Source: an uncultured Gammaproteobacteria bacterium (GTDB lineage Bacteria; Pseudomonadota; Gammaproteobacteria; Arenicellales; UBA868). From it: DNA of 50,443 bases. Made by a program: the position numbers and the translations under genes. The stretch covers positions 1 to 50,443 of the forward strand of contig CAJQRU010000060.1 of NCBI GenBank assembly GCA_905612355.1, given 5' to 3'. Shown here one piece after another: positions 3,110-13,825 of the stretch; the stretch's first letter is position 1; every line of letters starts with the position of its first letter. The notes under the pieces were generated by a model that was not told where the DNA came from, made no database searches, and worked only from the letters and a program-made list of their open reading frames with translations.

Positions 3110-4360
3110 ATGGCAGGTGCATTAGCCCATATCAGAGTGCTGGATCTCTCGCGCATCCTCGCGGGACCCTCGAGTACCCAAATCTTGGGTGATCTCGGAG
3201 CTGAAGTGATCAAGATAGAACACCCTGAGCGCGGCGATGACACGCGGGCCTGGGGGCCACCTTTCCTAGATAACCCTGCGATGGACGGCACTGCTGAATC
3301 AGCTTATTTTTTGGCTGCCAATCGTGGTAAGAAATCGGTTGCCGTGGACATCACCTCGACCCGTGGTAGTGCTCTTATTCAGCAGTTGGTAAGACAATGC
3401 GACATTGTCGTGGAAAACTTCAAGGTCGGTGGCCTGAAGAAATACGGCCTTGACTACGAGCATCTTTCGGCTATCAAACCGAATCTCATTTATTGTTCGA
3501 TTACTGGATTCGGTCAGACGGGCCCCTATGCTCATCGGCCCGGTTATGACCTTATGGCGCAGGCGCAAGGGGGTTTGATGAGTATCACGGGTGAGCGCGA
3601 TGATCAGCCTGGGGGCGGGCCCCAGAAAGTCGGCGTCGCCGCTGCTGATTTGATGACGGGAATGTATGCGTGCGTCTCGGTTTTGGCTGCGTTGGCTCAT
3701 CGTGAGCAGACTGGCGAGGGCCAACATACTGATCTGGCGTTGCTTGATTCACAGGTTGCAATGCTGGCAAACCAGGGCATGTTCTATCTCGTGTCCGAGG
3801 AATCTCCAGGCCGTAGTGGTAATGCGCACGCAACCGTTGTTCCCTACGGGACCTTTCCTGTTGCTGATGGAGAAATCGCGCTGGCCATCGGCAATGACAG
3901 TCAGTTTCAGCGATTTTGTAAGGTCACGGGCCTGGTCGAGACTGGAACAGACGAGCGTTTTAAGCACAATCGTAACCGCGTGGCAAATCGGGACGCACTG
4001 TTAACGCAGATGGGCGCAGTCCTGGTGACGCGGACGCGCGCTGAATGGCTGCTGGCGTTGGAAGAGGTGGGAGTACCGTGCGGCCCTATTAACAGCATCA
4101 GCGAGGTTTTTTCAGACCCCCAAGTACGCTCTCGTGACATGTGTTGGGAGGTCGATCACCCGTTTCGCCCGAAACTAAAGTTAGTGGCCAATCCTATTCA
4201 CATGTCGCGCACGCCGCCGGCACCTCAAGGCCCGCCCCCGTTACTGGGGCAACATACCACCGCGGTGCTGGGAGATCTCCTGAGTCTTACTCCGTCAGAG
4301 ATTGACGAGCTTGTTGCCCAGAAGGTGATTTTCTGCAATCCGGTGGTCCTAGCGCCTTGA
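3110..4360 (+). CDS. Class III CoA-transferase, probably succinyl-CoA:glutarate CoA-transferase
   Basis: A CaiB/BaiF (family III) CoA-transferase of 416 residues. It opens with LDLSRILAGPSSTQILGDLGAEVIKIE, interrupted here only for length by the family's usual variations, followed by NRGKKSVAVD and ITGFGQTGPY. Asp180 in the AAADLMTGMY stretch is at the position of the catalytic aspartate. AAGGAGG sits directly before the ATG, which lies 9 bases after gcdH. Because of this linkage it most likely activates glutarate to glutaryl-CoA for GcdH (the SUGCT/GcdG role). Family III enzymes also act on carnitine, formate/oxalate or itaconate, so the substrate is inferred from the neighbour. Confidence 0.85.
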   Translation: MAGALAHIRVLDLSRILAGPSSTQILGDLGAEVIKIEHPERGDDTRAWGPPFLDNPAMDGTAESAYFLAANRGKKSVAVDITSTRGSALIQQLVRQCDIVVENFKVGGLKKYGLDYEHLSAIKPNLIYCSITGFGQTGPYAHRPGYDLMAQAQGGLMSITGERDDQPGGGPQKVGVAAADLMTGMYACVSVLAALAHREQTGEGQHTDLALLDSQVAMLANQGMFYLVSEESPGRSGNAHATVVPYGTFPVADGEIALAIGNDSQFQRFCKVTGLVETGTDERFKHNRNRVANRDALLTQMGAVLVTRTRAEWLLALEEVGVPCGPINSISEVFSDPQVRSRDMCWEVDHPFRPKLKLVANPIHMSRTPPAPQGPPPLLGQHTTAVLGDLLSLTPSEIDELVAQKVIFCNPVVLAP

Positions 4361-4401
4361 CCGTTAATGCGTGGGGGGTGTTGCGGCGGAGTCCATTGTA
4401 T

Positions 4402-5913
4402 TCAGGTTTTGGAGCCCAATCGAAAATTAACGGGAATGTCATCTGATCGACTCTCTGGCAATGCAGTTTCCGGTAGAGGTTCATAACGCCAGTGCCGAAC
4501 AGCGTCCATGGCAGCGTTGTCCAGCAGTTTAAACCCGCTGCCGCGTTTTAGCGTGACTTTGCTGACGGCCCCGGTAGGTTGGATGCTAACGGTCAACATG
4601 ACATCACCTTGCAGGCGACGTTTGATCGCAAGACTCGGGTAAACTGGTTTGGGATTGCCGGCGACCTGTCGCGGCTGATGGTTTGATAAGGCATTTCCCA
4701 GTGGTGGCGACGCAGTTACCGTCGTTGGTGTCCGTGTTGTTGGGGTCGGGTGAAGGGTGGCGTTTGCAGGGAGCATTTTTTCTAAACGCTCAATTTCGGC
4801 TTTAAGTTTTTTTTCGGTAATGCTCGCGCGACGCACCTGATCTGTTGTTTGTTGTTGATGTGCTCGCAGTTGTTTGTTTTCAGTGTGAGCGAGTGCTAGT
4901 TGCGCACGAGTTGCATCCCGCGCCTCGGTTCGATTCGATTGATCCGTTTTAAGTTCGGCACGCAGCGCGTCAGCGAGTCGGGTCGCCGCGGTATGATGCT
5001 TTGTTAGGGCATTAAGTTTCCGCATTACTTGTTCAAGCTCGTTTTTGTGGCGTGCCTCTTCCCGGCCTGAGGTGGTCGATATAGCGGCCAGTTGGGCGCG
5101 TAGAACGTTGTTCTGTCTGGTGTTTTGAGTAGCAGCATCTTCGAGCAATTGCTTGCTTGATTCCAATTCCCAAGTAGCGTTGCGCAGGCTGTAGTTCGAC
5201 GCTTCGAGCGTAGCGACTGATTCTGTTAGACGGGTATGGTCGAGTTTGATCAGAGTCTCTCGCTCCTTCGCAGCGGCAATTTGATTAGTTTGGCTTAGCG
5301 CCTGGCTTTTCAGCTGTTGGTGTTTCTCGACTTGTGCTCTGTGGGCTTGTTCTTGGCGGCTGCTCGTTTGGTGGAGCGCCGCGTTCTGTGCAAGAGTGGT
5401 CTGTTGCGAGAGAGTCAGCTCCTTATGTTGGGCTTGAAGGGCTTTCTGGGACAGAGTCTGGCGCGTGATTTCATGACGCAGTCTCGAGTTGTCACGAGTG
5501 ATTGTTGCCTCCTTTCGTTGCAGTTTTTCAACCCTTGAGGCCTGTAGTCGGTTGCGCTGTTTCATGACGACAATGTTTTGAGTCTGGCTATCCAGAGCTT
5601 GGCGCAGTCGTTTGTACTGTGATTGCATCGCCGACAGGGCGGGTTCTAATGATTCACTGTGTGATGCTGCCGATACACGAGTGATTTCACTGCCCATGAC
5701 CTGGCTTTCGATCGTGATAACTGCCTGCATATCGGTGGCCAACGCAAGAGGCATGGGATCGGACGGATGAAGTCGATCAGCGCCAGCAAACAACGCGGCA
5801 TGAAGGCCTGCCGACAACACCAAACTCCAGACGATCGGATGTTTTAGCGTTCGCCACCTCGTGTGCAGGTCTGCTGTCGCAGAATGTGTATTTCTGGCTG
5901 TGTCGGACTTCAT
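4402..5913 (-). CDS. TonB-like energiser with a long coiled-coil spacer, under a cobalamin riboswitch
   Basis: From the ATG at 5913 the protein has 503 residues. A longer frame begins at 6099, but that start lies inside the riboswitch aptamer. A single membrane helix at about residues 25-44 contains SAGLHAALF, resembling the TonB/TolA-type anchor with a helix-embedded His. Residues of about 95-385 are a Gln/Ala/Arg/Leu-rich coiled coil with almost no proline. A short Pro/Thr linker leads to a TonB C-terminal domain at about 425-503 (VYPSLAIKRRLQGDVML, then VTLKRGSG and AVRHWRYEP). Ordinary TonB is about 240 residues with a proline-rich spacer. No exbB or exbD lies nearby. The cobalamin riboswitch upstream and the adjacent btu genes imply that it energises BtuB. 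Confidence 0.8.
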   Translation of the reverse strand: MKSDTARNTHSATADLHTRWRTLKHPIVWSLVLSAGLHAALFAGADRLHPSDPMPLALATDMQAVITIESQVMGSEITRVSAASHSESLEPALSAMQSQYKRLRQALDSQTQNIVVMKQRNRLQASRVEKLQRKEATITRDNSRLRHEITRQTLSQKALQAQHKELTLSQQTTLAQNAALHQTSSRQEQAHRAQVEKHQQLKSQALSQTNQIAAAKERETLIKLDHTRLTESVATLEASNYSLRNATWELESSKQLLEDAATQNTRQNNVLRAQLAAISTTSGREEARHKNELEQVMRKLNALTKHHTAATRLADALRAELKTDQSNRTEARDATRAQLALAHTENKQLRAHQQQTTDQVRRASITEKKLKAEIERLEKMLPANATLHPTPTTRTPTTVTASPPLGNALSNHQPRQVAGNPKPVYPSLAIKRRLQGDVMLTVSIQPTGAVSKVTLKRGSGFKLLDNAAMDAVRHWRYEPLPETALPESRSDDIPVNFRLGSKT

Positions 5914-5933
5914 TCCACCAACGCGTGCCTCAT
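5910..5933 (-). other. Possible 7-codon leader ORF overlapping the TonB-like start
   Basis: On the minus strand an ATG at 5933 opens a frame of seven sense codons. Its TGA (5912-5910) overlaps the ATG of the TonB-like gene (5913-5911) as ATGA. The run GTTGGTGGA ahead of the gene start is only a weak ribosome site, so coupled re-initiation is conceivable. It may be chance. Confidence 0.2.
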
Positions 5934-5972
5934 ATCGGAACCAGTGATCGTTTCGACGATACGCCGCCAGAT

Positions 5973-5990
5973 GGGTGTTGGCCCACACCC
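5973..5990 (-). promoter_or_regulatory. Leader hairpin between riboswitch and TonB-like gene
   Basis: GGGTGT and ACACCC form a perfect six-base-pair stem with a six-base loop, located 40 bases downstream of the aptamer and 60 bases upstream of the ATG. No U-run follows, so it is not a classical intrinsic terminator. It may be part of the expression platform. Confidence 0.35.
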
Positions 5991-6014
5991 TGGACATTTC
6001 CCGGTCCCGGATGA

Positions 6015-6195
6015 GCGACGCAGGCAGTGGCAGGTCTCCTGGCTTGCGGATCAGGGGCGGACTGATTGACCTTCCCGGCGTGATGCCAGTGGCCATCATA
6101 ATCTTCCGCTAGCCGCTTACAGTTGCGGGTACAGCCCGGACTGCCGTCAGTGTGGACGTTTCCGGTTCCCTATTAACCCCCAGTGGGGGCCAATG
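6015..6195 (-). promoter_or_regulatory. Cobalamin (B12) riboswitch, minus strand
   Basis: Read on the minus strand, the conserved blocks of the cobalamin aptamer occur in order: TTAATAGGGAA (about 6176-6166), GGGCTGTACCCGCAACTGTAA (about 6136-6117, one base over written in two overlapping parts: GGGCTGTACCCGC and CGCAACTGTAA), GGCCACTGG, CGGGAAGG, and CGCAAGCCAGGAGACCTGCC (6048-6029). This is a near-consensus match. The gene downstream on this strand is the TonB-like protein, whose annotated start must therefore be 5913. In the family, ligand binding lowers expression of B12 uptake or synthesis genes. Confidence 0.93.
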
Positions 6196-6279
6196 CCTAA
6201 GGGGGTTAGTAAAAACGAAAAGGGGGAACAATTCAAGCCGGTTTCAACACGGTCATGGAGCGCACCTAGAACATCTCGC

Positions 6280-6285
6280 TATACT
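6280..6285 (+). promoter_or_regulatory. Candidate -10 element for btuCD
   Basis: TATACT lies 41 bases upstream of the btuC ATG, in the divergent gap with the riboswitch of the TonB-like gene. The -35 is poor (TGGAGC at 18 bases). No cobalamin aptamer is visible on the plus strand between 6190 and 6326, so btuCD seem to lack the riboswitch control of their neighbours. Confidence 0.3.
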
Positions 6286-6325
6286 TGGTTGCTGCTTTTT
6301 TCATCCCCCTATCTTGCGCCTGCTC

Positions 6326-7309
6326 ATGCCTGCTCGACGTGCCTATTTCTTGCCGCTGCTTTTTCTGGGGGTCCTGGTAGCAGCCGCATGTTCTCTCGCA
6401 ATCGGCACGATCGAGGTGGATTGGCAACAGGTTTACCAGGGGTTGGTTGCGGGGCGGTCTAGCTTGCACTATGAAGTGGTTATGGGAATACGTTTGCCAA
6501 GAGCGGTGAATGCGTTTCTGGTCGGTGGAATGCTTGCGGTGGCTGGAGCGCTGATGCAGGTTCTTTTGCGAAACCCATTGGCTGATCCATATGTGCTGGG
6601 TGTGTCTGGCGGGGCGTCAGTTGGTGCGCTGCTGGCAATCATGCTGGGCTGGGCCGAGGCTGGGGTGTCTGGAGCAGCTGCTGTTGGTGCCTTGTTGTCA
6701 CTGTTTGTGGTATTCAGTTTAGCGCGTGGTGCGGGTCACTGGTCTTCAACTCGGTTGCTGCTAACCGGTGTTGTGATGGCGGCGGGTTGGGGCGCCGTGG
6801 TGAGCTTTTTGCTGGCGGTGAGTCCAGAAGCACACCTTCGAGGTATGTTGTTCTGGTTAATGGGGGATCTGACCGAACGTTTGCCAGGTGGTTTTCGGGT
6901 GGGCTTGTTGGCACTCGGGTTGGGCGTTAGTGTTTATGTCGCCAGAAGTCTCAATTTGTTAGCGACCGGTGAGCAGCGCGCCGCGAGCCTGGGGGTTAAT
7001 ACAGTGTTACTGCGCTTGATTCTCTATTTCACCGCTGGTGTGCTCACTGCGAGCGCTGTGACACTGGCGGGGGCGATCGGTTTTGTGGGCTTGGTAGTAC
7101 CCCATATCGTCCGACTCATGGTCGGTGCGGATCATCGTTTGGTTGTTCCTGGCTCTTTGCTCGTTGGCGGTGCATTGCTCATTGTCTCGGAGCTGGTTGC
7201 GAGAACTATCATGGCTCCCAATGAGTTACCTGTTGGCATCGTGACCGCGTTTATTGGCGTGCCTACCTTTCTATTTTTGCTGCAACGCAGTGCAGCCCCG
7301 CGATCATGA
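6326..7309 (+). CDS. btuC: Vitamin B12 ABC transporter permease BtuC
   Basis: A FecCD/BtuC-family permease of 327 residues from the ATG at 6326. The open frame extends upstream to 6152, but that stretch is hydrophilic, lies over the opposite-strand riboswitch and lacks a ribosome site. Family motifs are IRLPRAVNAFLVGGMLAVAG, LLRNPLADPYVLGVSGGASV, AGAIGFVGLVVPHIVRL and NELPVGIVTAFIGVPTFLF. About nine to ten membrane helices are expected. It ends with an ATGA overlap onto btuD. The neighbouring btuB, btuF and two cobalamin riboswitches point to cobalamin rather than iron-siderophore or haem import, which related permeases carry out. Confidence 0.9.
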   Translation: MPARRAYFLPLLFLGVLVAAACSLAIGTIEVDWQQVYQGLVAGRSSLHYEVVMGIRLPRAVNAFLVGGMLAVAGALMQVLLRNPLADPYVLGVSGGASVGALLAIMLGWAEAGVSGAAAVGALLSLFVVFSLARGAGHWSSTRLLLTGVVMAAGWGAVVSFLLAVSPEAHLRGMLFWLMGDLTERLPGGFRVGLLALGLGVSVYVARSLNLLATGEQRAASLGVNTVLLRLILYFTAGVLTASAVTLAGAIGFVGLVVPHIVRLMVGADHRLVVPGSLLVGGALLIVSELVARTIMAPNELPVGIVTAFIGVPTFLFLLQRSAAPRS

Positions 7310-8073
7310 CCGAATTAAGTGTCCACGATCTGCGTGTTGAGATAGGAGATGTGGTTGTTTGCCGTGATTTGTGTGCGACATTTAAGCCAGGGCAGGTATG
7401 GACGATTTTGGGCCCCAATGGAGTAGGTAAATCGACACTGCTCAAGACTTTGGCAGGCCTTTATCAACCCATTGTGGGTAGAGTGGCTGTTGCTGGGCAG
7501 TCGCTTGTCGAGATGCCGCGACGCGAAAGGGCGCGGCAGATTGGCATCCTATTCCAGGATCACGCCGATGTGTTTCCTTTGACAGTGACGGAAACAGTGC
7601 TAACGGGAAGGCATCCATGGTGTTCTCCTTTGCAGGGGGAAAGTTCCGTGGATCTGGAGCGGGTAGATCAAGTACTCGACGAAGTGGGGCTCGATGGTTT
7701 GCAGGATAGGAGTCTCTTTTCCTTATCAGGTGGGGAGCGTCGGCGGGTTGATCTGGCAGCATTGGCTGTCCAGGATTCGGCCGTCGTATTGTTGGATGAG
7801 CCCAGTAATCACCTCGATCCCCGTCATCAGGTCACATTGCTCGGGGGCATGATAGGCAAATGGCGTCGTGCGCGCCGTGCAGTGATCATGGTGTTACATG
7901 ACATTAATTTGGCTGTGAGGTTCAGTGATTATCTGCTCTTTCTCTATGGTGATGGCGAGGCATCTCATGGCTTAGTGACGGAAATGGCTACCGAGCCGCA
8001 TTTTTCAAGACTCTACGATCAGCCGATGGGCCGTTATCAGGCGCATGATCGTGATCTATTTTTCCCGCTTTAA
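7306..8073 (+). CDS. btuD: Vitamin B12 ABC transporter ATPase BtuD
   Basis: A 255-residue ABC ATPase of the BtuD/FecE/HmuV group. The Walker A is GPNGVGKST (residues 37-45), the signature SLSGGERRRVDLA, the Walker B VVLLDEPSNHLD and the switch histidine MVLHDINLA. It overlaps btuC by four bases, so the two are translationally coupled and form the inner-membrane importer. The next feature downstream is the btuB riboswitch, so btuCD and btuB are probably separately controlled even though they run in the same direction. Confidence 0.9.
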   Translation: MTELSVHDLRVEIGDVVVCRDLCATFKPGQVWTILGPNGVGKSTLLKTLAGLYQPIVGRVAVAGQSLVEMPRRERARQIGILFQDHADVFPLTVTETVLTGRHPWCSPLQGESSVDLERVDQVLDEVGLDGLQDRSLFSLSGGERRRVDLAALAVQDSAVVLLDEPSNHLDPRHQVTLLGGMIGKWRRARRAVIMVLHDINLAVRFSDYLLFLYGDGEASHGLVTEMATEPHFSRLYDQPMGRYQAHDRDLFFPL

Positions 8074-8117: not shown

Positions 8118-8147
8118 TTGACAGTTACTGAGGCGACGTCGTAACGT
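8118..8147 (+). promoter_or_regulatory. Candidate promoter for the riboswitch-btuB transcript
   Basis: A perfect -35 TTGACA (8118-8123) is followed after 18 bases by TAACGT (8142-8147), a weak -10. Transcription would begin just ahead of the aptamer, which fits the position. Confidence 0.35.
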
Positions 8148-8164
8148 GCAGCCTCTCGATGTGG

Positions 8165-8362
8165 GTACCGTGTGACTTCTCAGACGCACGGTGAAACGGG
8201 AAGCCGGTGCGCTAAAAACGTTGATTTGTGCAAGGCCGGCACTGCCCCCGCAACGGTAAGTGGTAGGGATTCAGCACATTGCCACTGCGGCGATCGCCGT
8301 GGGAAGGCGCTGAGTTCTTGGCAGCGGCAACGCCGCCTGACCACGAGTCCGGAAACCGGTCC
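8165..8362 (+). promoter_or_regulatory. Cobalamin (B12) riboswitch upstream of btuB
   Basis: The conserved aptamer blocks appear in order on the plus strand: GTGAAACGGGAAGCCGGTG (8191-8209), CCGGCACTGCCCCCGCAACG with GTAAG (from 8236), AGCAC then TTGCCACTG (8273-8287), CGTGGGAAGG (8298-8307), and CACGAGTCCGGAAACCGGTCC (8342-8362, last block written from CACGAGTCC on). An inverted repeat ACCGTG/CACGGT (8167-8172, 8187-8192) forms the 5' helix. It should repress btuB when cobalamin is plentiful. Confidence 0.93.
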
Positions 8363-8381
8363 ATATCGAAACCATTTAGTT

Positions 8382-8408: not shown

Positions 8409-8475
8409 CGTTAGAACTCCTCAGTACCACTCACCTCGCATGAAACGCGCACGGGTGGTGCGTAAGGAGTTACAA

Positions 8476-10290
8476 ATGCTTTGTATGAAGTGCTGGCGTG
8501 GTGTCCGATGGATTGGGTTAATGGTGCTGGCGTTCCCCGCTTACGCTGCGGAAACCGTGATTGTGACTGCAACACGAACTGCAGAGATGGTTGATGAGAC
8601 GTTGGCACCAGTTACCGTCATCACGCGCAAAGAGATTGAAGCCCTCCAAGCCAGCAGTGTCGCAGATGTTTTGCACACTGTCCCCGGTGTGATCCTTACG
8701 AACAACGGTGGTCTCGGTCAGGCGACGTCGTTGTTTCTGCGTGGCACTAATTCTGGGCACGTTATCGTTTTAGTTGACGGGGTTCGTGTCGGCTCGGCAA
8801 CCCTTGGCACTACGCCATTCGAACTGATTCCATTGGCACAGGTGGAGAAGATAGAGATCGTTCGCGGTCCAAGATCCAGTTTGTATGGGGCAAACGCCAT
8901 TGGTGGGGTGATTCAGATTTTTACCCGATCTGGTGCAGCGACTAAAAAAATGTCTGTGAAGTCGAGTTTGGGTACAGACGGTTTTCGAGAACTGACGGCG
9001 GGTTTTGTTTCGAACTCGAAAGCTGGGATCAGTGTTCGGTTCAGTCATCTTGGGAGCGATGGATTTGATGCCTGTACCGGCGCCGCGGGCGGTTGTTACG
9101 TGGACGAACCTGATCGTGACGGGCATGAAAAAACGGCGTTGGCAATACGTTTTGACCGTCAGTTATCGGCAGCCGCTGAACTGGGGTTGCATTTTATGTA
9201 TTCGGATGCTGATACAGACTATGACGGCAGTTTTTCCAATCAAACCGAGACCCAAATGCGTGTGATCGGCGGTCGTCTTGTCTTGGATCCAAGCACAAAC
9301 TGGCGATCGACTGTCGCCGTTGGTCAGAGCCTGGATGGGGCTGAAGACTTCAAGGATCGTGTCTTCAGTAGTCGTTACGAAACCCTCCGAAATTCACTGT
9401 CTTGGCAGAACGATGTAGCACTGGGTAGTGCTGGACTGCTGACTGCCGGTGTCGATTATCAGAATGACACGGTAGACAGCGACACGGTCTTTACTGTGAC
9501 CTCACGTGATAACACCGGGGTGTTTATCCAATATCAAAAAGACGTCGAGCAATATGGTGTCCAGTGGGCGTTGCGACATGACAACAACGAGCAATTCGGC
9601 GACTACAGCACGGGTAGTGTCACGCTCGGCGTTGACACAGCTAAGGACCAACGGGCTACCGTATTTTACGGTACCGCTTTTAAAGCGCCGACTTTCAATG
9701 ACTTGTATTATCCCAATTGGGGTAGTCCCGTGTTGGAACCGGAAGAGTCGAATACGATAGACCTGGGTTATCGTGTGTTGCTGCCTGATCGACGCTGGAC
9801 CGTTAATGTTTTCCAAACGAATATTGATGAATTAATAGCTTACGATCCGATTGCCGCAGGTCCGGCTAACATAGACGAAGCGCAGATACGTGGTGTTGAA
9901 GTGGGTCTAACGATGAGCCGTGACGCGTGGCGATGGTCCAGTGCGTTGACCCTACTCGATACGGAACAAAGGAGTGGTGCTAATCGGGGGAGGGCGTTAC
10001 CTCGTCGGCCAAGTGAAGCGCTCTTTTTGAACCTCTCTCGCGACTTGGGTCGGTACGGGGCAGGCATTCAGGCCACATTCAACGGCAAAACCTATGACGA
10101 CCTCGCCAACACTTCGTTGCTGGATCGTTATGTCGTCGTCGACCTTGTTGGTCACTGGAAGATGAGTGATAACTGGTGGCTAAACGGCAAGATAAAGAAT
10201 GTGTTTGACGAGGACTATGAGACCGCGGCGTATTATCGACAGCCCAGGATCGGATGTTTTGTTTCTGTTAGTTACAAGAAAAGCGAATGA
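8476..10290 (+). CDS. btuB: TonB-dependent vitamin B12 outer-membrane receptor BtuB
   Basis: The start is the ATG at 8476, chosen because AAGGAG (8464-8469) precedes it and a signal peptide follows (membrane stretch, then AFPAYA before AETVIV). This gives 604 residues, close to E. coli BtuB (614). The open frame starts further upstream at 8380. A TonB box is visible at the mature N-terminus (ETVIVTATR). The plug domain contains VADVLHTVPGV and VEKIEIVRGPRSSLYG, and the rest is a beta-barrel ending in VFDEDYETAAYY and a final strand. The riboswitch directly upstream and the btuCD/btuF neighbours make cobalamin the substrate. The final strand reads FVSVSYKKSE and lacks the usual terminal aromatic residue. 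Confidence 0.92.
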   Translation: MLCMKCWRGVRWIGLMVLAFPAYAAETVIVTATRTAEMVDETLAPVTVITRKEIEALQASSVADVLHTVPGVILTNNGGLGQATSLFLRGTNSGHVIVLVDGVRVGSATLGTTPFELIPLAQVEKIEIVRGPRSSLYGANAIGGVIQIFTRSGAATKKMSVKSSLGTDGFRELTAGFVSNSKAGISVRFSHLGSDGFDACTGAAGGCYVDEPDRDGHEKTALAIRFDRQLSAAAELGLHFMYSDADTDYDGSFSNQTETQMRVIGGRLVLDPSTNWRSTVAVGQSLDGAEDFKDRVFSSRYETLRNSLSWQNDVALGSAGLLTAGVDYQNDTVDSDTVFTVTSRDNTGVFIQYQKDVEQYGVQWALRHDNNEQFGDYSTGSVTLGVDTAKDQRATVFYGTAFKAPTFNDLYYPNWGSPVLEPEESNTIDLGYRVLLPDRRWTVNVFQTNIDELIAYDPIAAGPANIDEAQIRGVEVGLTMSRDAWRWSSALTLLDTEQRSGANRGRALPRRPSEALFLNLSRDLGRYGAGIQATFNGKTYDDLANTSLLDRYVVVDLVGHWKMSDNWWLNGKIKNVFDEDYETAAYYRQPRIGCFVSVSYKKSE

Positions 10291-10422: not shown

Positions 10423-11328
10423 TTATTGGCCCGAACGGGCTCGTTGGATGAGTTCACACAGGGTTTGCATGCCCGTAAGAATCCTGGGGGTTGCCCGATT
10501 AATAAGATCAGGGTCAATGGTAAACAAGTGCTTTTTCTCTACCGCGCGTAGGCCGGACCAGCGTTGCCACGATACTAGCCAGTTGTGTGCCCTTGATGCC
10601 GGCGCTGCTGCAATAATGATTTCGGGGTCTGCGCCAATGACGGCTTCTCGTGATACGGTGGGCGCGAGCGAGTCCACATGCTCGAAGATATTGACTCCGC
10701 CACAATGACGAATCAGGCGGCTCACCAAGTGTTTGCCATTCAACGTCATTAGTGGATCCTGCCACACCTGATAGAAGACCCGCATCGGAGAACGCCCGTT
10801 GTACTGTTTTTTCAATGCTGAAGCCTCGGCGAGAAACGTTTTGGCCAGGCGATGGCCGCGATCTTCCACGCCGGTTAAGCGACCCAGTCGGCGCAGTGTG
10901 GTGGCAATATGTTCGAGTTGACGCGGTTCCGAGCGAAAGATTGGGATGCCCAGTCGATGGATCCGAGTGAGTTCAGAAGTGGGGTTTCCGCTGTGCCAGG
11001 CTAAGGCCAGATCTGGCCCCAGGGCAATGGTCGCTTCAAGATTAAATTTTTGGTGAGAACCAATCCGAGGGATTAATTTCGCCTTGGCGGGATAATTGCT
11101 GTACTCCACTGCGCCTACGATCTGGTCATCGACGCCGAGGTGGAACAGGTATTCAGTTAGGTGTGGGGCAAGACTAATGATACGTTTGGCCGGTGCCGAG
11201 AGAACCAGTTTGATGCCAGTATCGTCCTGAACCACGATCGGGCGGTCCGCACTGGCCGGTCCGGTCGCGAATAGCAGTAACAGGGCGGTGACACCCGTCA
11301 GAATGGACCTGTGAATCGCCCTGAACAA
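10423..11328 (-). CDS. btuF: Periplasmic cobalamin-binding protein BtuF
   Basis: A 301-residue class III solute-binding protein with an N-terminal signal peptide (LTGVTALLLLFATGPASA). Family stretches include KRIISLAPHLTEYLFHLG, GAVEYSNYPAKAKLIPRIG, LEATIALGPDLALAW, CGGVNIF and EAVIGADPEIIIAA. It delivers B12 to BtuCD. It starts at a TTG (11328); no ATG is available ahead of the signal peptide. It lies convergent to btuB and 19 bases downstream of coq7 on the same strand, with no riboswitch in front. It is therefore physically in the B12 island but apparently transcribed with the coq7 run. Confidence 0.88.
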   Translation of the reverse strand: MFRAIHRSILTGVTALLLLFATGPASADRPIVVQDDTGIKLVLSAPAKRIISLAPHLTEYLFHLGVDDQIVGAVEYSNYPAKAKLIPRIGSHQKFNLEATIALGPDLALAWHSGNPTSELTRIHRLGIPIFRSEPRQLEHIATTLRRLGRLTGVEDRGHRLAKTFLAEASALKKQYNGRSPMRVFYQVWQDPLMTLNGKHLVSRLIRHCGGVNIFEHVDSLAPTVSREAVIGADPEIIIAAAPASRAHNWLVSWQRWSGLRAVEKKHLFTIDPDLINRATPRILTGMQTLCELIQRARSGQ

Positions 11329-11347: not shown

Positions 11348-12022
11348 TCAGAGCCGATAGGCGGTTGACGTCATGACCCGGCTGGCAAGGCGCATGATCG
11401 ACCGGATCGGTCTCGGCAGGGTGGTTGCACCGGCTCGTCGGGCCATACGAGCATGGCGCTGCTCGTCTACGCGCATTTGTGTCAAGACGGCATGACTTTT
11501 ATGGTCGGAACGTGGCAATCGTTTAAGATGATTACTGAGGTGTTTCTCAACCTGCTGTTCTGTTTCTTCCACGAAGCCGAGATTGGCGCCGTCTCCCATT
11601 ACCCCCGCGACAGCACCCATCACAAATGCGCCGCTGTACCACAGTAGATTCAGGCGGCTCTCGCTGCCCCCAAGCGTCTGGATCCGGCTTTTGCACCATC
11701 GCAGATGATCATTTTCTTCTATCGAGGCCTGTTGCAATGCTTGTCGCACGGTCTCGTTACGTGAAGTCAGTGATTGTCCTTGGTACAAAGCCTGCGCGCA
11801 GATTTCACCCACGTGGTTTACTCGCATTAATCGCGCAGCTTCTTCCCGTTCGCCTTGGGTTAAGTCGTCTTGTTTCACACCGTCGGCTGGATTGTCGCGC
11901 CCGCTACCGGTCGGCATGCCGGCGACCGTAATCAGCGCGTTGTCCAGTGCGATCAAAAGGCGGTCAAGCGATGTCAGGTGGCGATGATGGGTTTTCAAAG
12001 TCGGGTGCCTCGCGGCGCTCAT
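11348..12022 (-). CDS. coq7: Ubiquinone biosynthesis di-iron hydroxylase Coq7
   Basis: A 224-residue Coq7/CLK-1 family protein. The four-helix di-iron ligand motifs are present: RVNHVGEICAQALYQGQ (Glu and the ExxH-type pairing), IEENDHLRWC, VEETEQQVEKHL and MRVDEQRHARMA. It hydroxylates the demethoxy-ubiquinol ring, the oxygen-dependent late step replacing UbiF in some proteobacteria. It acts at the inner membrane face. An N-terminal extension of about 60 residues precedes the catalytic domain, as in many bacterial Coq7 proteins. Its presence points to an aerobic, ubiquinone-using proteobacterium. Confidence 0.93.
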   Translation of the reverse strand: MSAARHPTLKTHHRHLTSLDRLLIALDNALITVAGMPTGSGRDNPADGVKQDDLTQGEREEAARLMRVNHVGEICAQALYQGQSLTSRNETVRQALQQASIEENDHLRWCKSRIQTLGGSESRLNLLWYSGAFVMGAVAGVMGDGANLGFVEETEQQVEKHLSNHLKRLPRSDHKSHAVLTQMRVDEQRHARMARRAGATTLPRPIRSIMRLASRVMTSTAYRL

Positions 12023-12059: not shown

Positions 12060-12839
12060 TTAAATAATCAGCCGCCGTCGAATGAGGATGATAGTCAAGC
12101 ACGTGCCTACGGCGCCAAAAGCGATCAGTACGAGCAGGTGTTGGAACGGCGCAATCAATTCCTGACCGGTTACTAGCGGTCTCACTAAGGCAACGGCATG
12201 AGTCAATGGCAGAAACTGTATCACTTGTTGCATTCCCTCCGGCAGTGTTGTCGTCGGATAGAACACTCCGCACAGTATGAACATTGGTGTGATCACCAGC
12301 GTAATGTAGTAACTAAAGAATTCGTAGCCGTGGGCCAGTGCCGTAACGATCATTGCCAGGGCTCCAAAACAGAAACCGATGACAAACAGTAATGGAATGG
12401 ATAGCAATGCGGACAGATCGCTGACGGCACCGAGAAAAACGGCAACAATGAGGATAGCGCATCCGGCAATCGTGCTCTTGGTTGCACACCAGAGTAACTC
12501 ACCAACAACGATATCATCTACTTCAATGGGTGTTGCTAGGAGCGCTTCATAAGTGCGTTGCGGCACCATTCGGGTATATACCGACCACATTGCTTCGAAG
12601 CTAGCCGTGTTCATGGCAGAGGAGGCGATGAACCCGGATGCTAGAAACGCGAGATATGGCATGCCTGCCATTTTTCCGATGAATAGGCCAAGGCCATAAC
12701 CTAGCCCGAGTAGATAAATTAACGGCTCACCGAAGTGGACCACCAGGCTAGGGGCAATCAGTTTTCGCCAGACAAGGAAGTTCCGTTGCCACACAGCAAG
12801 GGCTTGATGACGAATCAGAGGTTGCCGACGGCGCTTCAA
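12060..12839 (-). CDS. ABC-2 type exporter permease (NodJ-like)
   Basis: This 259-residue protein has six predicted membrane helices and the ABC-2/NodJ stretches FGEPLIYLLGLGYGLG, YLAFLASGFIASSAMNTASFE and TPMFILCGVFYPTTTLPEGM. It pairs with the ATPase just upstream; its TTG start overlaps that gene's stop (TTGA), and no ATG exists near the N-terminus. NodJ-type permeases export lipo-oligosaccharides or other lipid-linked compounds. Outside rhizobia the substrate is unknown, and no substrate gene is visible here. Confidence 0.82.
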   Translation of the reverse strand: MKRRRQPLIRHQALAVWQRNFLVWRKLIAPSLVVHFGEPLIYLLGLGYGLGLFIGKMAGMPYLAFLASGFIASSAMNTASFEAMWSVYTRMVPQRTYEALLATPIEVDDIVVGELLWCATKSTIAGCAILIVAVFLGAVSDLSALLSIPLLFVIGFCFGALAMIVTALAHGYEFFSYYITLVITPMFILCGVFYPTTTLPEGMQQVIQFLPLTHAVALVRPLVTGQELIAPFQHLLVLIAFGAVGTCLTIILIRRRLII

Positions 12840-13825
12840 TCTCGTATATCCCGGCCGGTTAGGCGAAGAAAGACATCCTCCAGATTGGCCTGACGGTGAA
12901 GCACTTGCTCTAACCCCAGGCGATCTATTGCTGTGGTCAGTGTTGTCGGGTCATCTGCATAGGCATAGGTGGTATCACCACTGTATTCAAGTCGTGTTGC
13001 TGCATTCTGGATGGTTTGTTTCTGCAACGGATCCAGTGTGTTCCTGATTTCCAGTACCGTTTTTTCACAATGTGTCGCAATCAGTTCCTTGGTGGTCCCA
13101 CGGGCGACGACATGACCGTGATCGATGAGTACAAGGTTGTCACACAGTCGTTCCGCTTCTTCGAGGTAATGGGTGGTCAGAATGATCGTTTTGCCTGATC
13201 GTTTCAGGCCATGGATCAAGGCCCATACCAGGTGGCGTGCTTGTGGATCAAGTCCCGTGGTGGGTTCATCAAGCACTAGGAGTTCAGGATCATTGACTAG
13301 CGCGCGGGCAATCGTGAGCCGCCGTTTCATCCCGCCGGATAACGTACTCACACGACTGTGGCGGCGGTCACTGAGTTCGACCAGGTTTAGCAATTCGTCA
13401 ATTTCATGCTGCATAACATCTGGGCGCAGTCCAAAATAACGAGCATAGATAGTGATGTTCTCGATCACGCTGAAATCCGGGTCGAGTGTATCGGCCTGGG
13501 GCACAACGCCGGTTCGGGCACGAATGTCGCGACCGTGGTGCCGAATGTCTTTGCCGAACACTTCAAGAACTCCGTCGCTCGGAGGCGATTGACCCAATAT
13601 CATTCGTAGAGTGGTTGATTTTCCCGCGCCGTTCGGTCCGAGCAGCCCGAAACAGGTGCCTGCCGGAATGGTCAGATCAAGATCATGTATGACAGTTAAT
13701 TCGCCGAAGGACTTGCAGAGCCCTTTACATCTGATGAGGGCATCGCCAGCAGAAGGGATCGGTGTTGGTGCGTCGACGGCTGTCTTTGACAACATGGTTA
13801 GGCTTGGAATGTCTCGCGATACCAT
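12836..13825 (-). CDS. ABC exporter ATPase (NodI/DrrA-like)
   Basis: A 329-residue ATPase with Walker A GPNGAGKST, signature TLSGGMKRRLTIARAL, Walker B LLVLDEPTTGLD and switch TTHYLEEAERLCD. The C-terminal 90 residues form the accessory domain typical of NodI/CcmA-like exporters. Start choice is uncertain. The ATG at 13825 overlaps the HAD gene by 28 bases, while an in-frame ATG at 13795 starts just after the HAD stop. Neither has a strong ribosome site. It energises the NodJ-like permease. Confidence 0.85.
   Translation of the reverse strand: MVSRDIPSLTMLSKTAVDAPTPIPSAGDALIRCKGLCKSFGELTVIHDLDLTIPAGTCFGLLGPNGAGKSTTLRMILGQSPPSDGVLEVFGKDIRHHGRDIRARTGVVPQADTLDPDFSVIENITIYARYFGLRPDVMQHEIDELLNLVELSDRRHSRVSTLSGGMKRRLTIARALVNDPELLVLDEPTTGLDPQARHLVWALIHGLKRSGKTIILTTHYLEEAERLCDNLVLIDHGHVVARGTTKELIATHCEKTVLEIRNTLDPLQKQTIQNAATRLEYSGDTTYAYADDPTTLTTAIDRLGLEQVLHRQANLEDVFLRLTGRDIRD

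Follow-up and report, generated by a model that had tools for sequence, protein, structure and literature searches.

A riboswitch-linked TonB with a predicted coiled-coil spacer in the B12 uptake locus of an uncultured gammaproteobacterium

The TonB of Escherichia coli serves several receptors and is not known to be under riboswitch control. In the same organism, the linker of TonB is about 115 residues long and includes proline-rich segments, and the linker of TolA has about 300 residues and is predicted to be a coiled-coil helix; in other species, proline-rich TolA linkers are found (PMC12905483). There are also dedicated TonB proteins, such as HasB and TonB1341 of Helicobacter pylori (PMC3602595), and the uptake of B12 in Anabaena depends on TonB3 (PMC10878165). 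A literature search, with most subscription papers outside its reach, found no description of a coiled-coil TonB or of btuB-tonB operons and, within the same reach, no statement that tonB genes linked to B12 riboswitches are common.

The window, i.e., the whole stretch of 50,443 nucleotides analyzed here, comes from an uncultured member of the Arenicellales (UBA868) with a draft genome of 2.14 Mb that is 62% complete. Its close relatives include the metagenome-assembled genomes (MAGs) named Acidiferrobacteraceae SAT1331 and ALOHA_A2.5_35, and the family was sampled through 33 genomes, all of them drafts. The window carries a gene for a 503-residue TonB-family protein beside genes for B12 uptake. 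Quite probably, this protein acts as the TonB in a Ton system that has one substrate, B12, and one receptor, BtuB; it would be controlled by a riboswitch and would transmit force through a coiled-coil spacer.

The B12 uptake locus and its receptor

Three of the uptake genes are on the plus strand. The first is btuC, a FecCD permease gene at 6320..7309 (PF01032, 287 bits; the best NCBIfam matches are BtuC models, below cut-off), followed by a btuD-like ATPase gene at 7306..8073 (PF00005) and by btuB at 8440..10290, the gene for the TonB-dependent B12 receptor. The exact start of btuB is uncertain, and its match to TIGR01779 (543 bits, E 7e-163) is below the cut-off of 600 for that model. The TonB box of BtuB reads ETVIVTATR (about 8548-8574, plus strand); the box is conserved in the family and is of the VxVTATRTA type in relatives. 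The gene for the periplasmic B12-binding protein, btuF, is on the minus strand at 10423..11328 (PF01497; BtuF model E 3e-50, below cut-off). Near the B12 locus, there are also genes for a NodJ-type ABC-2 permease and an adjoining ATPase (12060-13825, minus strand). A YjbE-family TerC-like metal membrane protein is encoded at 1073-1690 on the minus strand (TIGR03717, 183 bits), and no yybP-ykoY riboswitch reached the threshold within the window.

Two cobalamin riboswitches accompany the uptake genes, and both are far over the RF00174 gathering score of 31.5 bits. The aptamer of tonB is at 6012..6209 on the minus strand, where cmscan matches model positions 1-189, which is the full length (98.2 bits, E 2.1e-23). 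The first-pass annotation had already recognized this minus-strand riboswitch, with an end at 6195 that is about 14 nt short of 6209. The second riboswitch, also of full length (108 bits), is at 8146..8378 on the plus strand, ahead of btuB.

The pairing of riboswitch and tonB is conserved in the family. A protein of this kind with a strong TonB_C match is present in 24 of the 33 genomes (in two more, it is truncated at the end of a contig), and in all 22 genomes that have both elements on one contig, the riboswitch is directly upstream of tonB on the same strand. In the window's genus, btuCD lie between tonB and btuB. Several members of genus g4 have tonB and btuB in divergent orientation, with a separate riboswitch for each of the two genes.

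The receptors of the family follow the same trend. At least one Plug domain is found in 25 of the 33 genomes; in all 25, the best-scoring one is on a riboswitch-bearing contig, and in 21 of them, including the window genome, BtuB is the sole Plug protein, with the absence of other receptors being provisional in draft genomes. These counts, as well as the retention of the gene's own B12 riboswitch across genera, make it improbable that the protein is a general TonB that serves several receptors and is in a B12 locus by chance, even though most TonBs of other bacteria are shared and four of the 33 family genomes have two to four Plug proteins.

A dedication to B12, as the first-pass annotation had proposed, is well supported by the sequence data because the riboswitch-tonB pairing is kept, BtuB is usually the only TonB-dependent receptor, and CbiC is absent from genomes that have B12-binding enzymes. 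CbiC (PF02570), the marker used for synthesis of the corrin ring, was found in none of the 33 family genomes and B12-binding domains in all of them, and the family therefore appears to use corrins but not to make them. A second, yqgE-linked TonB-like gene occurs in at least some relatives, and its product could serve BtuB. As a separate observation, the activation domain of MetH (PF02965) is found in the window genome (G000:C38:4874-5689) and in none of the other 32, and many family genomes have a B12-binding frame of about 1100 amino acids, the size of MetH. The lone PF02965 could be explained by contamination of this MAG or by a variant form of MetH that the family carries.

The TonB protein and its spacer

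In the list of open reading frames, the tonB frame is open from 6099, and ATG 5913 is the best choice of start, not a proven one; it gives the 503-residue protein at 4402..5913 on the minus strand. A single N-terminal transmembrane helix, placed by hydropathy at about residues 27-45 (5779..5835, minus strand), contains a Ser-x3-His pair, S34 and H38, and the SxxxH pattern is present in 19 of 19 relatives. In E. coli, the SHLS motif contacts ExbB, and Ser-x3-His is the ExbB-contacting part (PMC12905483). By inspection, the Leu and the second Ser of SHLS are out of register in the window's anchor. Inspection also finds a short strand-like motif soon after the anchor in most relatives; in the window, it is QAVITI at residues 63-68 (5710..5727, minus strand), and it may be a counterpart of the described D-box (PMC12905483).

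The TonB C-terminal domain is at residues 421-499 (4417..4653, minus strand) and overlaps the conserved motif GNPKPVYP. It scores 71.6 bits against PF03544 (cut-off 24.6, E 8e-20), and TIGR01352 agrees (61.6 bits, cut-off 27.1). The PDB sequence matches of the protein are to TonB structures only, there is no TolA family match in Pfam or NCBIfam at E 0.001, and a distinct tolA gene is present next to tolQR on contig C105 of the window genome, so an identity as TolA was rejected. The long helical spacer does resemble the TolA linker of E. coli (PMC12905483), and one could consider a TolA-like envelope protein with a structural or division role that was recruited to the B12 regulon and does not energize BtuB. 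With a TonB C-terminal domain and a separate TolA, such a role is very improbable.

For the TonB of a B12 system, the spacer is the part that departs from the usual design. The stretch from the anchor to TonB_C comprises 375 residues and has a proline content of 2.9%; about 290 of these residues are predicted to form a coiled coil (residues 91-385; 4759..5643, minus strand) with a break at 279-283. The proline-rich spacer usual in TonB, which the profile does not require, is absent. COILS-type scoring with a scoring window of 28 assigns 232 of the 375 residues to coiled coil, compared to a mean of 37 and a maximum of 109 in 50 shuffles; the shuffles, rather than the absolute scores from the MTIDK weights, are the real yardstick. 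AlphaFold2 predicts helices at residues 91-278 and 284-385, mostly with pLDDT 70-90, from an alignment of three sequences only. The ends of this model are unreliable, since the anchor and TonB_C are below pLDDT 50 and TonB_C is not folded. Three lines of evidence support the predicted coiled coil, namely the COILS-type score, the low proline content, and the AlphaFold2 helices. Thus, the first-pass picture of a TonB-type anchor and a TonB C-terminal domain joined by about 290 residues of proline-poor coiled coil is borne out.

The same picture had the coil build the span across the periplasm, and this part is doubtful. At 1.5 Å per residue, the two helices would be 28 nm and 15 nm long, a total of 43 nm if straight. 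The periplasm has been put at 10-20 nm (PMC3602595), and because the predicted length exceeds this, the coil is unlikely to stand as a straight strut; it could possibly fold back at the 279-283 break, tilt, or partially unfold under load. Coiled-coil spacers are found in all 19 family TonBs that are sufficiently complete, and 18 of them score above every shuffle. The coil is also no fixed ruler, since spacer length varies almost three-fold among relatives, from 170 to 459 residues. Two loci of one genus and the same kind, L019 (G012) and L025 (G008), have spacers of 170 and 458 residues, about 288 residues apart. The ends of the two proteins match, which means that there was a large in-frame length change within the coil.

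Proposed riboswitch control and mechanism

The leader between the aptamer and the tonB start codon is at 5914..6011 on the minus strand and is the presumed expression platform. In a nucleotide alignment, the DNA from the aptamer to ATG 5913 is kept across four members of the genus. By inspection, most of the changes in this stretch would be non-synonymous if it were read in frame, so it looks like an RNA leader rather than coding sequence. The MFE hairpin spans the region before the tonB ATG and is no more stable than shuffles (z 0.01), and a translational expression platform was for this reason rejected as proven. Judging by the RNA family, B12-responsive control of tonB would be the usual meaning of such a riboswitch. 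That its target is instead the divergently transcribed btuC, or that it is a relic, leaving tonB free of B12 control, is hardly credible: the btuC start is about 110 nt from the aptamer and the leader fold is not exceptional, but the aptamer shares its strand with tonB, points towards tonB in 22 of 22 genomes even when btuB is divergent, and is conserved together with the leader. Two riboswitches of the family, L015:608-799 (43.5 bits, towards btuB) and L105:7084-7276 (65.9 bits, towards tonB), are weaker than the usual score of about 100 bits and are possibly decaying or diverged copies.

The mechanism proposed for a riboswitch-controlled TonB that serves BtuB is as follows. When B12 is plentiful, the cobalamin riboswitch would lower tonB expression, as is expected of this RNA family, and the second riboswitch ahead of btuB would act in parallel. 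When B12 is scarce, TonB would be made, anchored in the inner membrane through the Ser-x3-His helix, and docked on an ExbBD motor that is presumably encoded elsewhere. In the window's draft genome, the search for ExbBD found TolQ only. An ExbBD pair is present in a comEC-exbBD-msbA-lpxK cluster, which was read in the genomes of two relatives, and an ExbB of the length class of this cluster is found in most other family genomes. This cluster is the likely source of the motor, with TolQR as the alternative. The C-terminal domain of TonB would then take the TonB box of BtuB, and force would pass through the long alpha-helical coiled coil, as proposed for TolA, and not through a polyproline strut. 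The coil would probably be kinked, folded back, or oligomeric, since a straight helix would be longer than the periplasm. A more specific version, in which this is a minimal single-receptor Ton system and the TolA-like coil transmits force by changing its compaction or by folding back, is tentative and rather unlikely as it stands. How TonB converts the rotation of its motor to a pull across the periplasm is an unsettled question, and a natural TonB that has a long helical linker like that of TolA and, according to the drafts, serves one client receptor would be a clean test case.

Riboswitch-linked tonB genes and known systems

The link between a cobalamin riboswitch and tonB extends beyond the family. 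RF00174 was searched in 184 gammaproteobacterial genomes, 120 riboswitch neighborhoods were sampled, and tonB was detected in them by a TonB_C profile built from sequences of the present analysis. It was found in 23 of the 120 sampled loci (23 genomes from 22 families), which shows that riboswitch-linked tonB is widespread; the idea that such control is unique was rejected on this count. In 21 of the 23 loci, tonB comes after btuB in the same orientation, and the gap between the two is small or absent; at one locus (L182), no BtuB was recognized. At L124 (G170), ExbB-like and ExbD-like ORFs lie between btuB and tonB, the four ORFs standing in a row at 3279-7349 near a cobalamin riboswitch, and this B12 locus seems to have a motor of its own in addition to a TonB. 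With linked genes this common, B12 uptake would often have its own energizer.

The spacers of the 23 control TonBs have 99-231 residues and 1.6-25% proline. Only L208 has a coiled coil among them, and it covers 64 residues (the anchor of L140 is poorly located). Within the sample, the long coiled-coil spacer is a mark of the window's family, and its combination with a riboswitch-linked tonB is seen in this family only, apart from the weak case of L208. The first-pass annotation knew of no described case with both traits; riboswitch control turns out not to be unusual, and it is the combination that stays particular to the family.

Another family of the same order has its own riboswitch-tonB unit in two genomes (L108 and L110), with proteins of 693 and 852 amino acids. 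At L108:6018-11688 (G055), RF00174 matches are found at 6018-6203 and 11503-11688, the former overlapping the first CobN-like ORF; the CobN-like ORFs are split among three reading frames, and at 10594-11049 there is an ExbB/MotA-like ORF. TonB_C proteins of about 573-582 amino acids from another family of the order (L238-L244) were considered as possible coiled-coil TonBs and set aside, as their membrane helix is preceded by a long, unrelated N-terminal region.

Among known systems, the TonB of E. coli with BtuB (2GSK complex) shares with the window TonB a Ser-x3-His N-terminal anchor, a TonB_C domain, and a BtuB partner with a TonB box; the window TonB differs in its coiled coil of about 290 residues and its own B12 riboswitch. 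The gammaproteobacterial riboswitch-btuB-tonB operons likewise have tonB in a B12 uptake locus behind a cobalamin riboswitch, but their tonB usually comes second, after btuB, and, with the exception of L208, has a spacer without a coiled coil, whereas a separate riboswitch precedes the window tonB. In L108 and L110, as in the window, the riboswitch is directly followed by tonB and the proteins are unusually long, but the spacer in that family is not coiled-coil-like by eye and has 8.8% proline in the partial protein of G042 (L030). HasB and TonB1341 of H. pylori also serve one uptake system, but their substrates are heme or nickel rather than B12, and the spacer of HasB is proline-rich and unstructured. 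TolA, like the window TonB by prediction, has a long helical coiled-coil linker from its anchor to its C-terminal domain, but that domain is its own, its partners are TolB and Pal, and its gene is beside tolQR. The window protein is a TonB whose middle part resembles that of TolA, and its unusual part is the spacer, not the riboswitch link.
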